The translations under genes were made by a program, and so were the position numbers. Below, one piece after another: positions 25,794-29,328 of a stretch of 64,000 bases of DNA. Position 1 is the stretch's first letter. Every line of letters starts with the position of its first letter. The DNA comes from Psychrobacter sp. 28M-43. GTDB lineage: Bacteria; Pseudomonadota; Gammaproteobacteria; Pseudomonadales; Moraxellaceae. The notes beneath the pieces are model-generated. The model ran no database searches and was not told the origin of the DNA. It saw only the letters and a list, made by a program, of their open reading frames with translations. The stretch covers positions 2,418,001 to 2,482,000 of the forward strand of contig NZ_CP061739.1 of assembly GCF_014770435.1 (NCBI RefSeq). The letters are read 5' to 3'.

Positions 25794-25821
25794 TCAACCT
25801 ACCTTTATTTATCGTCATTAG

Positions 25822-25856
25822 AAAAGCCCCAATCATTGAGTGGTTGGGGCTTTTTT
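25822..25856 (+). terminator. Rho-independent terminator of the hut operon
   Basis: The arms AAAAGCCCCAATCA and TGGTTGGGGCTTTT pair at 13 of 14 positions around a 5-base loop and end in T6. It lies just after hutI. The remaining gap to 26037 is AT-rich and presumably holds the promoter of the next gene. Confidence 0.9.
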
Positions 25857-26037
25857 AATAACAATGTTGCAAATTTTATGGAATTGAAGAAAAAAACCTT
25901 CATAACCTTACTTTAAATAGGGATTTACTATATCAATATTATTAGTAAGGATTTATAATACCCTTTTTTAAACAGGGTTATTTTTGGCTAACTATAGTTC
26001 ATAAATAAAAATCAACAAACAGTATAGAGAAAGCGAT

Positions 26038-26400
26038 ATGCGTACAGATTCATTTCAGCAGATATTGGAAGACTTAAACAGTTCATCAGCAGATGTTGAA
26101 GCATCTGCCCTAATCTCTAACGATGGTCTTATGATTGCTTCAGCTCTACCAACCGGCGTGGATGAAGATCGCGTGGGTGCTATGTCAGCAGCATTATTAT
26201 CATTGGGTGATCGTGCAGGACGCGAGTTGGCACGCGGTGGTATTGATCGCATCATGATTCAAGGCGAAAAAGGCTATGTGATCATGACCTCATCAGGCGA
26301 TGAAGCGGTACTTACCATCATGGCAAAACCCAACGCCAAGCTTGGCTTGATATTCCTAGATATTAAGCGTGCTTCAGAAGCGTTGGCAAAGCTCATTTGA
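26038..26400 (+). CDS. Roadblock/LC7 domain protein (MglB-like)
   Basis: The 120-residue soluble protein is a single roadblock/LC7 domain. It shows the typical order: helix, then EASALISNDGLMIASALP, the long helix DRVGAMSAALLSLGDRAGREL, the strands RIMIQGEKGYVIMTSS and DEAVLTIMAKP, and a final helix. Such proteins dimerise and often act as partners or activators of small Ras-like GTPases (MglA/MglB). No GTPase gene lies nearby. It is the first of five same-strand genes, followed by PAS, PhnD-like and two unknown proteins. A ~106-bp repeat element now lies between it and the PAS gene. Cellular role unknown. Confidence 0.85.
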   Translation: MRTDSFQQILEDLNSSSADVEASALISNDGLMIASALPTGVDEDRVGAMSAALLSLGDRAGRELARGGIDRIMIQGEKGYVIMTSSGDEAVLTIMAKPNAKLGLIFLDIKRASEALAKLI

Positions 26401-26446
26401 TTGGCGACTGCTTATCGAATTTATTAGCTTTTTAATCACTATAAAC

Positions 26447-26552
26447 ATAGTCGGTTCAATATAGTTTGAATACAAGGAAGCCGAGTGAGAGTACTACAAG
26501 TAGTAGGCTAAGCAAGGCTGACACTGTATCCAATTTATAGAGGGTTGACGAT
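26447..26552. repeat. MITE-like dispersed repeat, copy A2 (diverged)
   Basis: It begins ATAGTCGGTTCAATATAG and ends with TTATAGAGGGTTGACGAT, the same inverted ends and order as copy A1 at 17059. Shared internal blocks include GAATACAAGGAAGCCGAG against GATACAAGCAAACCGAA. It fills the gap between the roadblock and PAS genes and ends 25 bp before the PAS start. Confidence 0.7.
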
Positions 26553-26577
26553 ATAACGATCAACGAAGGAGATGACC

Positions 26578-27072
26578 ATGGGTTCTCCAATCCCTGATGC
26601 ACACAAACCCGATATGCCTGCTGAGCAAATCACAATGACTTATTATGATGGCACGTCACGGACTGTCTATGATACTGGTATAGAGCGCCCCTACCCAGAC
26701 GGTAAGCTGATTGTCTCGCGTACCAATCTCGACGGTATCATCACTCACGTCAACGACGCCTTTGTCGAAATCAGTGGCTATCATGTAGATGAATTGATTG
26801 GCCAACAGCACTATATTTTGCGTCATCCTGATATGCCAAAAGCTGCCTATAAAGACTTATGGAGTACTGCTGAGTCTGGACAAAAATGGCATGGCTATGT
26901 CAAAAACTTATGCAAAGACGGCAGTCATTATTGGGTCTATGCCACTGTGGTGCCTAACGTGCGTCGCGGCGAAACCGTCGGCTACACCTCGGTACGACGC
27001 AAACCATCACGCAGCAAAATTGAAGCAGCGATGACTCAATATGCCCAAATGAAACAAGATGAGGAAGGCTAA
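26578..27072 (+). CDS. Small PAS-domain sensory protein (Aer-type PAS)
   Basis: The 164-residue soluble protein consists almost entirely of one PAS domain. It shows LIVSRTNLDGIITHVNDAF, VEISGYHVDELIGQQH, ILRHPDMPKAAYKDLW, GQKWHGYVKNLCKDGSHYWV and a final strand. The wording resembles the FAD-binding PAS of Aer energy sensors, so redox or oxygen sensing is plausible. There is no output domain, so it must signal through a partner. AAGGAG directly abuts an ATG at 26572; the ATG at 26578, with six-base spacing, is the better start. It ends three bases before the PhnD-like gene, implying co-translation. Confidence 0.82.
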   Translation: MGSPIPDAHKPDMPAEQITMTYYDGTSRTVYDTGIERPYPDGKLIVSRTNLDGIITHVNDAFVEISGYHVDELIGQQHYILRHPDMPKAAYKDLWSTAESGQKWHGYVKNLCKDGSHYWVYATVVPNVRRGETVGYTSVRRKPSRSKIEAAMTQYAQMKQDEEG

Positions 27073-27075
27073 GTC

Positions 27076-27825
27076 ATGACGACACACCATATGTTAATCG
27101 CCCCTGATTTTTCGCCTGATCGCTTTGCAGGCTGGCACATGTTCAATACTTTGATTCAAAAACGTGCCAACTTAAACATGCATCTAAATATCCCTGCCTC
27201 TCACGCTGAGCAAGAGCAGGTCATTGATGCTGGTGACATTCAAATCATTTATGCCAACCCTTTTGATGCAGCCACTCTCATCCGAGAGCAAGGCTATCGA
27301 GCCATTGCCCGACCTATCGGCAAGTCTGATGAGATGGTCATTGCAGCCGCAGCTAATAGCGCTATTAGCCGTTTGGAAGATATTCAAGCAGAGGCTACTG
27401 TCGCGATGGCTGACAACCGAGATGTCAAACTGATTGGCTTGCGCTTGCTAGAAGCCGTCGATATAGAAGCATCTGATCTCAACTGGGATGTGACCGAGAC
27501 CTATCAAGCGGCTGCCCGCAAAGTCATCAAAGGTGAAGCCCAAGTCGCGTTCTTTTTGGCAGAGATTTTTCATAGCTTTTCACGCTTGACCAAGACTCAG
27601 CTATCGGTACTTATCGAAAGTGACTTGGCTGATATCAGTCATGTACTCCTTGTTAAAGAAGACTTTCCCGATGCGCAAATCTTCCTAGAGGCCATCCTCA
27701 ATTTGCATAACGATGCAGATGGTAAAGAAGCATTGTCTGAGCTTGGCATGCCTCAAGGATTTGAGCCAATGAGCGAAGAAGATGCCGAATTTATGATTGA
27801 TTTGATGCAGACACTATTGGATTAG
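27076..27825 (+). CDS. Cytoplasmic PhnD-like binding-fold protein
   Basis: The 249 residues look like the PhnD/SsuA periplasmic-binding fold used for phosphonate, phosphite or similar anions: IIYANPFDAATLIREQGYRAIARP, EATVAMADNRDVKLIG, TYQAAARKVIKGEAQVAFFLAE and ADGKEALSELGM. There is no signal peptide or lipobox and no transporter gene beside it. It is therefore predicted to stay in the cytoplasm, probably as a ligand sensor rather than an uptake protein. It follows the PAS gene by three bases. The ligand is unknown. The C-terminal tail is very acidic. Confidence 0.72.
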   Translation: MTTHHMLIAPDFSPDRFAGWHMFNTLIQKRANLNMHLNIPASHAEQEQVIDAGDIQIIYANPFDAATLIREQGYRAIARPIGKSDEMVIAAAANSAISRLEDIQAEATVAMADNRDVKLIGLRLLEAVDIEASDLNWDVTETYQAAARKVIKGEAQVAFFLAEIFHSFSRLTKTQLSVLIESDLADISHVLLVKEDFPDAQIFLEAILNLHNDADGKEALSELGMPQGFEPMSEEDAEFMIDLMQTLLD

Positions 27826-27949
27826 TCGCTCAATCATTATATTGATATCAAGCGCTATTTCTCTGGATTACATCATCGCTTGTCGTATGACATCATTATC
27901 ATTGAAGCAAGCACCGTCGTCATAATAGCGATGACAGGAGGGTATTATT

Positions 27950-28573
27950 ATGTCTGATTCAGACCTGATCAAAGAAAATGAAAGAGTCGCACACCGAGTA
28001 TTTCGGTTTTACTCTCGTAAAGTATTTTTGGCTCCTAACAACCGTCATTTTCATGAGCAGCGCATCAATGCAGCGTTACTGTTGACGGAGAAAGAACCGC
28101 TACAGGGTGCAGTGGCTGACTTTTTTTATGGGTGCTGGTTTGATATCCCATATGATGTAAACAATCTATTTACTCGTATCAAAGATCGTTTGTATCCTCA
28201 TGTCCAGCAAGGCTTTCGCGAGTGCATTGATAAAAAAAGATACATCCAGCGCAATAGTATGTTGGCCACTCGTTGGAGTGTGCTGATATCCCCTTCTCTC
28301 AATGAGCAAAAGCAACGGCTGCGTATCAGCAGCGACGATGCCCGAGAAATCGCTAAAGACATCACCACTGAGCTGATGCAAGCGCGTGAGGACGAAGACT
28401 GGGGTACGATCGAGCAAATCGAAAATGAGTTTTTTGCCCATTGTACTGCGCGCAATGATCGTCTCGCATTTTCGTTGGTATGGTTTCGCTTGGGTAGAAG
28501 TGATTGGCAGTTCGATGCACGTTGGGACAACTGCCAACAACATCTCGATCAAACTATAGTCAAATCCATATAA
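27950..28573 (+). CDS. Unknown protein of the roadblock/PAS cluster
   Basis: I do not recognise the family of this 207-residue soluble protein. It has a strong AGGAGG ribosome site. It is mostly helical with many aromatic residues (RVFRFYSRKVF, DFFYGCWFDIPYDVNNLF) and a charged central helix. Conserved-looking Trp residues occur near the end (LVWFRLGRSDWQFDARW). No signal peptide or membrane segment is present. The last five codons and the stop (28556-28573) belong to the inserted repeat copy A3, so its C-terminus has been rewritten by that element. It lies 124 bp after the PhnD-like gene. Confidence 0.75.
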   Translation: MSDSDLIKENERVAHRVFRFYSRKVFLAPNNRHFHEQRINAALLLTEKEPLQGAVADFFYGCWFDIPYDVNNLFTRIKDRLYPHVQQGFRECIDKKRYIQRNSMLATRWSVLISPSLNEQKQRLRISSDDAREIAKDITTELMQAREDEDWGTIEQIENEFFAHCTARNDRLAFSLVWFRLGRSDWQFDARWDNCQQHLDQTIVKSI

Positions 28574-28660
28574 AGCTGCTACATCGTCATCCTCGCTAAG
28601 CATAATAATGTATAACTTACGCTCGGTTTCCTTGTATCGAAATTATTTGAACTCAACAAT
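28556..28660. repeat. MITE-like dispersed repeat, copy A3 (inverted relative to A1)
   Basis: The reverse complement matches copy A1 at 17059-17163 along nearly its whole length. It includes an identical 27-base block (28578-28604) and shared AATTTCGATACAAG and GTTATACAT blocks. It starts within the coding end of the preceding gene and provides its stop codon. It occupies most of the gap before the next gene. Confidence 0.8.
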
Positions 28661-28701
28661 ATGAAAGCTTAATTTGTCACTTATTAATCACTTTTATCAT
28701 A

Positions 28702-29328
28702 ATGGTAGTTACTATGTCCTCTTACTTAAATGCTGATAAAACCTATCTTACCCTGACGCCAGCTGGTATTTTTGAGGCGTTTTCACAGAACGAACCGACT
28801 GATGAGCAGCTGGCATTACAGGATTTGCTATCTTATGATCAGACACTGCTCGCTGCTGACTGGCTTCAGCGCTATTCTGAACAATGGCTACAGAGCTTTA
28901 TAGAACAAGGTTGGATTGAAAAGCTGTCGCTACTTTTACCAGCACCTAACTTACCATTGGACCAGTTCTTGCCTTATGTCGTGGCGAGCTTATCTGGTAA
29001 ACGCCGTGCCGCGATCGGCTCTGATGAAGGATTTTGTTTGGCGCGAGTGAGCTATAGTCAAGAAGAAGCAGATATGCTCAGTGTCGCCGCCGCTGATTTT
29101 TCAGGCTTTATGCTTCGCCAAAAGCAACGTGGATGGGCGGTAGAAAGCCAAGCAATCTCGTTTTTTCAGCAGGTCGACCTACTCATTCCTGAGACCAGCT
29201 TTGTGTTTTTATGGATAGACAATGCAGGCTACGTTCTCATCATCGATGGCGAACCTCTGACCAACAGTCGCGCCTTTGTAGAGCTGGTATGGGCACTTAA
29301 AACGTCTGGATTGAGATTTCTTAATTAA
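28702..29328 (+). CDS. Unknown protein with possible divergent roadblock fold
   Basis: The 208-residue soluble protein belongs to no family I recognise by name. The C-terminal half (about residues 95-208) reads like a roadblock/LC7 fold: strands RRAAIGSDEGFCLARVSYS, a long helix EEADMLSVAAADFSGFMLRQ, strands SFVFLWIDNAGYVLIIDGE, then helix SRAFVELVWALKTSGLRFL. These segments line up in order with those of the roadblock protein at 26038-26400. The N-terminal third is helical and Gln/Leu-rich. An in-frame ATG at 28714 (MSSYLNADK) is an alternative start; neither has a good ribosome site. It is the last gene of the cluster. Confidence 0.7.
   Translation: MVVTMSSYLNADKTYLTLTPAGIFEAFSQNEPTDEQLALQDLLSYDQTLLAADWLQRYSEQWLQSFIEQGWIEKLSLLLPAPNLPLDQFLPYVVASLSGKRRAAIGSDEGFCLARVSYSQEEADMLSVAAADFSGFMLRQKQRGWAVESQAISFFQQVDLLIPETSFVFLWIDNAGYVLIIDGEPLTNSRAFVELVWALKTSGLRFLN

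Follow-up and report, generated by a model that had tools for sequence, protein, structure and literature searches.

A roadblock, PAS and PhnD-like gene cluster of Psychrobacter is probably a GTPase-free relative of Group 3 MglA-type operons

The five-gene locus

In a 64,000-nucleotide stretch of the complete 3.1-Mb genome of Psychrobacter sp. 28M-43 (genome G000; NZ_CP061739.1, positions 2,418,001 to 2,482,000; hereafter the window), we analyzed a cluster of five open reading frames, all on the plus strand and in the order Robl-PAS-PhnD-U4-U5 (Table 1). Comparison with related loci suggests that the cluster is probably a relative of Group 3 MglA-type operons that has no GTPase; in its fullest form the operon runs U4-X-GTPase-U5-Robl-PAS-PhnD, and the window has five of these seven genes. 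An earlier, sequence-only reading of this DNA had described five same-strand genes, PAS and PhnD lying three bases apart, with no signal peptide seen and no GTPase at the locus, and all of this was confirmed: by eye, none of the five N-termini looks like a signal peptide, and there is no GTPase gene at the window locus.

Table 1. Features of the cluster and its surroundings, in window coordinates
Feature	Position	Strand	Description
Gene 1, Robl	26038..26400	+	roadblock/LC7 (MglB-type), 120 amino acids (aa)
Gene 2, PAS	26572..27072	+	free-standing PAS of Aer type, 166 aa; translation probably starts at 26578
Gene 3, PhnD-like	27076..27825	+	binding protein of 249 aa without an apparent signal peptide
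Gene 4, U4	27950..28573	+	helical protein, 207 aa
Gene 5, U5	28702..29328	+	predicted divergent second roadblock, 208 aa; small helical N-terminal part
U5 roadblock part	about 28945-29322	+	predicted
Gap U4/U5	28574..28701	+	128 bases; site of X and Ras-like GTPase in relatives
Intrinsic terminator	25817..25859	+	3' of upstream hut genes; 20-pair hairpin with T run

The intergenic gaps, in gene order, are 171, 3, 124 and 128 bases; all five genes may share one transcript. The strong terminator (hairpin of -27.1 kcal/mol, z -8.9) sets the cluster apart from the upstream hut genes. Averaged over 19 residues, hydropathy peaks at 1.25 across the five proteins, and there is no hydrophobic segment of membrane strength. 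In the 171-base gap between Robl and PAS an inverted repeat, TACTAC-AA-GTAGTA, was noticed by eye within window 26440-26540; allowing up to three mismatches, the 31 bases around it are found nowhere else in the window.

Roadblock proteins and U4

Robl matches Robl_LC7 (PF03259; E 1.2e-18, 67.1 bits against a cut-off of 23). Its conservation was followed over 92 related loci (87 of them different) in which U4, U5 and Robl are all present and of which 38 have a GTPase near PhnD and 54 do not; the pair Asp29-Gly30 is invariant in all 92, as are 16 of the 26 residues from 42 to 67. Among solved structures, cvnB5 (3leq) matches Robl at E 3.7e-12, and MglB (6h5b) is a distant relative (E 3.5e-5) that is likewise found among the distant relatives of the U5 model. 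The closest solved structure to the Robl profile is a Thorarchaeota roadblock (7f8m, E 4.3e-32), far closer than bacterial MglB, a result that an ancient subfamily, a transfer or wrong binning of a contig might explain.

The product of gene 5, U5, has no family in Pfam, and its named close relatives are Psychrobacter proteins. The sequence-only reading had left it as an unknown, a description that has to be revised, as its C-terminal part is predicted from the structural model to have a roadblock fold and U5 is the probable second roadblock of the cluster. U4 gave a single Pfam match, far below cut-off, and its predicted model (pLDDT, the predicted local distance difference test score, of 84) is almost entirely helix. 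Repeats like those of tetratricopeptide repeat (TPR) proteins occur in some relatives, TPR_14 rising above cut-off in only one (L295) of nine scanned, and U4 is a possible TPR-like adaptor.

Sensor-like proteins

The PAS protein matches PAS_3 (PF08447, E 1.3e-17), and the closest solved structure is the PAS domain of the aerotaxis receptor (8dik, E 3.8e-36). Translation probably starts at the second ATG of the frame, which is where several relatives begin. Each residue of its RHPDMP segment, which we take to have a role in flavin binding in Aer-type PAS domains, is present in at least 95% of the 92 loci. The same holds for each of the EFMIDL residues near the C-terminus of the PhnD-like protein, a segment that could plausibly be a docking element.

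The PhnD-like protein matches Phosphonate-bd (PF12974, E 5e-34), its relatives are named in databases as transport proteins, and 2 of 29 representative loci have, no more than 10 kb away, a gene that by eye is PstS-like, all of which could be taken to mean that the protein serves the uptake of phosphate, phosphonate or phosphite and that its neighbors are incidental. We consider this very improbable. The export signal and transporter partners of PhnD periplasmic binding proteins are both missing here, in that by eye the protein has no signal peptide and no hydrophobic N-terminus, and no transporter gene is among the seven neighbor families widely shared by the 29 representative loci; moreover, PhnD is accompanied by Robl in all 47 family genomes and all 19 class genomes that have it (see below). 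Two arrangements in relatives were noted in passing. At L286:8906-10143 a PhnD-like relative pairs with an SCP2-family protein (PF02036, E 6.8e-14) and not with PAS, and at L252:7664-8894 a second PhnD-like gene, followed by one for a 147-aa protein that has no Pfam match, stands beside a roadblock gene. Perhaps the PhnD-like protein commonly teams up with small sensors that can be exchanged for one another.

Conservation in the family and the fuller operon of relatives

Robl, PhnD and U4 were counted over 149 genomes of the family, and the genus was represented by 41 genomes. An orthologous Robl (85-100% identity) was found in 47 of the 149, to which a broken copy in G033 and 12 further genomes with weaker roadblock matches only can be added, giving 60 in all. 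The PhnD-like gene occurs in the identical set of 47 genomes and U4 in 49, these being the 47 together with G033 and G023, so that the rare co-occurrence which the sequence-only reading had named as telling against a functional unit was not seen. In the genus, 31 of the 41 genomes have both Robl and PhnD. Twenty family loci of 13 to 19.5 kb, the window's own included, were fetched, and 19 of them have all five genes in one order (with PAS split over two frames in L065), while the exception, L080 from G033, has no PAS and no PhnD; flanking genes vary between genera. Judged by gene content and order, the five genes form a conserved unit, more than chance neighbors, which agrees with the earlier proposal of a cytoplasmic-looking unit in which an Aer-type PAS and a PhnD-fold protein travel together with roadblocks.

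In 11 of the 20 loci (L063-L073) two further genes, for a protein X and a Ras-like GTPase, lie between U4 and U5; both are absent in the other nine, the window included. X, a protein of about 420 aa, is poorly conserved and has no confident Pfam match, and stands in the matching position in 83 of the 92 related loci. In one relative from the Oceanospirillaceae clade (L146:10089-11927), X has a long run of RLEAE-type repeats in mid-protein. The operon GTPase, of about 180 aa, is Ras-like, with the motifs GPVGAGKT, TTVAMDYG and YGTPGQ; in the 11 related loci GTPGQ is present and a threonine replaces the G2 arginine.

Spread beyond the family

Of 293 genomes of the order (Pseudomonadales), 18 gave a match to the U5 profile, 7 in the own family and 11 in other families. 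Ten of the 11 other-family loci show an unbroken U5-Robl-PAS-PhnD row that is preceded by U4 and X, and two (L145, L153) have the GTPase; in L154, PAS and PhnD were not found. Among 457 related stretches found by scanning genome contigs with the PhnD alignment, the best 80 were analyzed, several of them cut by contig ends. The taxa among these 80 include Oceanospirillaceae (Amphritea, Marinobacterium, Nitrincola, Neptuniibacter), Thiotrichaceae, Methylococcales, Burkholderiales, Halothiobacillus and metagenome-assembled genomes (MAGs) of Chloroflexota, and PAS is present in all 80, Robl in 66, U5 in 64, U4 in 61 and the GTPase in 26. The module thus recurs across Gammaproteobacteria, in other families of the Pseudomonadales and in Methylococcales, Thiotrichaceae and Burkholderiales, with the complete seven-gene row in Methylotuvimicrobium buryatense 5G (L221/L302), and its gene order is kept in nearly all the loci listed, L210 being one exception. 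Clustering the neighbors in the 29 representative loci returned seven families, each found in 18 to 26 loci, namely U4, PhnD, PAS, X, U5, Robl and the GTPase, and the next families were an antisense frame in 8 loci and an 873-aa protein in 6. In a MAG of the Thiotrichaceae (L191:2114-3037), whose locus is one of those with no separate Robl, a Ras-like GTPase fused to a roadblock domain lies on the opposite strand, adjoining PAS-PhnD; this fusion links the GTPase-roadblock half and the PAS-PhnD half in another arrangement.

A class-wide sample of 369 genomes, in which PhnD and Robl were counted at E 1e-20 or better, gave 19 genomes with PhnD and 47 with Robl. Every PhnD genome also has Robl, and in 16 of the 19 the two genes are about 2 kb apart or less. 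Fifteen Robl loci without a nearby PhnD were fetched, and since 12 of these show U4-X-GTPase-U5-Robl (U4 of L292 being cut by the contig end), PAS-PhnD looks like a pair added onto a GTPase-roadblock core. Among the remaining three, L299 has U4-X-U5-Robl without the GTPase, and L304 and L305 are arranged differently.

Absence of the GTPase and selection on the remaining genes

Searching the window's genome with the operon GTPase returned nothing at E 1e-3, and the GTPase profile, followed up to E 10, gave only a match of E 0.28 inside a 684-aa frame. PF00025 (Arf) matched only frames of 488, 477 and 320 aa, sizes that fit MnmE, Der and Era, and no small single-domain protein. As far as these searches detect, a single-domain Ras-like GTPase was not found in this genome. 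The earlier suggestion of a link to a Ras-like GTPase therefore divides: it holds for the wider family, where the gene is in the operon of relatives, and the distant MglA-like GTPase that it envisaged was not found here.

On a quick tree of the 92 loci, with some long branches, the presence of the GTPase changes at least four times, or three times counting well-supported branches alone. The groups without it are the Psychrobacter group, G006, the Oceanospirillaceae clade (45 rows, with X kept) and one MAG (L242). We read these changes as losses, because the GTPase has the same position in distant groups and in the PhnD-less loci, and from this comparison it follows that in the window's lineage the GTPase and X would have been lost from between U4 and U5. 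G138 (L073), treated here as a member of the same genus, retains the full seven-gene set, which would place the loss inside the genus or close to it.

The roadblocks could still regulate a GTPase encoded elsewhere, either a second MglA-like gene or a housekeeping GTPase, presumably one of MnmE, Der or Era size. Some GTPase match is present in 14 of the 31 module-bearing genus genomes, and the surface of Robl that would be expected, as we assume by analogy to MglB, to face a GTPase (residues 42-66) is equally conserved in either case, its mean entropy being 0.27 without and 0.34 with the GTPase. Some genomes of the genus have a GTPase gene at a locus of its own together with a roadblock-like partner, as in L157 (G118), where the two lie side by side, and L156 (G023). 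However, that partner is only distantly related to Robl, 17 of the 31 genomes, the window's included, have no match, and the PF00025 matches in the window's genome are confined to the 320-488-aa frames, all of which makes regulation in trans unlikely in our view. In the Oceanospirillaceae clade, four genomes (G415, G184, G299, G220) gave no GTPase match and G377 one of E 0.05, and three (G396, G319, G339) have a match elsewhere in the genome.

It could also be argued that, with the GTPase lost, what is left of the system is decaying and will disappear. Robl and PhnD are absent together in 10 of the 41 genus genomes, and two stages of decay can be seen in G033 (L080), which lacks PAS and PhnD and has, beside U4 and U5, a roadblock frame that is broken, and in G023 (L155), where only a shortened U4 and U5 were found. 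Yet the genes are kept in 30 GTPase-less genus loci, with U5 within 1.5 kb of PhnD in 29 of them, and their ratios of nonsynonymous to synonymous substitution (dN/dS; Nei-Gojobori, pairs with dS of 0.1-1.5) are 0.012 for Robl, the most constrained, 0.053 for PAS, 0.047 for PhnD, 0.042 for U4 and 0.036 for U5. The five genes are thus firmly under strong purifying selection without the GTPase, and the 45 rows of the Oceanospirillaceae clade likewise retain the module with no GTPase at their loci; we disfavor the leftover explanation as improbable. In the 11 GTPase-bearing loci dN/dS is 0.059 to 0.148, from a small set of 2 to 22 usable pairs per gene, and the contrast is not firm because the two sets are different clades.

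A proposed mechanism

The cluster is, we think with some confidence, a GTPase-free relative of the Group 3 MglA-type operon that acts by the mechanism outlined here, and it is probably a working sensory scaffold; we infer that it signals without a GTPase, and propose what it may control, as follows. Robl, as a homodimer, and U5, through its roadblock part, would form the scaffold of a cytoplasmic complex in which PAS, with a flavin to judge from its Aer-like sequence, would report redox or energy state, and the PhnD-like protein would report a small cytosolic ligand. In GTPase-bearing relatives, the role of the complex would be to tune nucleotide cycling by the GTPase, and X, which by the description in PMC4316618 would be receiver-like and winged-helix-like, could be an output. 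In Psychrobacter and the GTPase-less Oceanospirillaceae clade, the input would go via the roadblock scaffold to another partner, for which U4 is a candidate. The final output is a guess by analogy, perhaps type IV pili or transcription. A bolder idea, which we advance tentatively, is that an operon for a Ras-type switch shed its GTPase in several lineages, leaving the two roadblocks as a GTPase-independent hub that now signals without it and directly reads a flavin PAS and a cytosolic PhnD-type sensor.

Several observations weigh against this interpretation. The ten genus genomes without Robl and PhnD, and the decaying loci of G023 and G033, mean that the five-gene unit is dispensable. GTPase matches do occur in the 14 module-bearing genus genomes mentioned above (at the locus in G138, elsewhere in the others listed), and the tree alone does not separate loss of the GTPase from gain. 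The two arms are separable: 14 of the best 80 PAS-PhnD loci have no separate Robl in the stretch examined (12 of the 14 were inspected, some of them cut short, such as L208 and L241), and 28 of the 47 Robl-bearing class genomes have no PhnD. The roadblock call for U5, made on a predicted structure, never reached a Foldseek E better than 2e-3, and sequence profiles reveal no relation between U5 and Robl.

Bacterial roadblocks are understood chiefly as regulators of GTPases, and here the GTPase seems to have been optional over evolution in a conserved and widespread row of genes. The function of orphan roadblocks thereby becomes testable, since sister lineages that have or lack the GTPase can serve as controls, and repeated losses of the GTPase, if true, would be a natural experiment on the roles of roadblocks apart from GTPases.

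Comparison with known systems

The cluster shares the roadblock fold with the MglA/MglB polarity module of Myxococcus xanthus, but in the window there is no GTPase and PAS and PhnD are added. Actinobacterial conservons (CvnA-D) are alike in the idea of an operon of roadblock and small GTPase; they have a histidine kinase-like CvnA, whereas the Pfam scan of the five window proteins gave no histidine kinase family and, by eye, there is none among the seven shared families. The Aer receptor of 8dik, presumably that of E. coli, shares the PAS domain, which in the window stands alone without the rest of the receptor.

The closest likeness is to the Group 3 MglA systems of beta- and gamma-Proteobacteria, which combine a conserved protein, made up of a receiver-like N-part, a variable linker and a winged-helix-like C-part, with a homologue of MglA and one or two of MglB (Wuichet and Sogaard-Andersen, PMC4316618, excerpted text). 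According to the same excerpts, MglA of Groups 2-5 has GTPGQ in G3 and no G2 arginine, MglB of these groups has an Asp-Gly pair, and no orphan MglB had been characterized at that date. The X-GTPase-U5-Robl core of the relatives resembles this description in position, size, linker variability, GTPGQ and the roadblock Asp-Gly, which we read as Asp29-Gly30 of Robl; the match is one of described features and not a placement on the tree of PMC4316618. The statement of the sequence-only reading that no described system has this composition can accordingly no longer stand for the core. The window itself has the one or two roadblocks in its gene row (Robl by PF03259, U5 by predicted fold), but two defining features, the GTPase and X, are absent, and because of this we regard it, on the description available in PMC4316618, as a relative and not a member of the Group 3 MglA system. 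U4, PAS and PhnD are not named where that text describes Group 3 neighborhoods, and we found no description of the PAS-PhnD arm or of U4 in the open-license literature.

The Group 3 mgl genes of Snodgrassella communis resemble the window in having roadblock genes, of which one, an orphan, lies at a distance from mglA, and differ in that the genome has mglA and that PAS and PhnD are unmentioned in the excerpted text of PMC11112851. There, a mutation in the orphan mglB accompanied altered spreading and better gut colonization in a non-native host, which is, within these excerpts, the sole functional hint that we found for the Group 3 branch. The two sensor-like proteins of the window and its relatives are a candidate input arm for Group 3 MglA systems.

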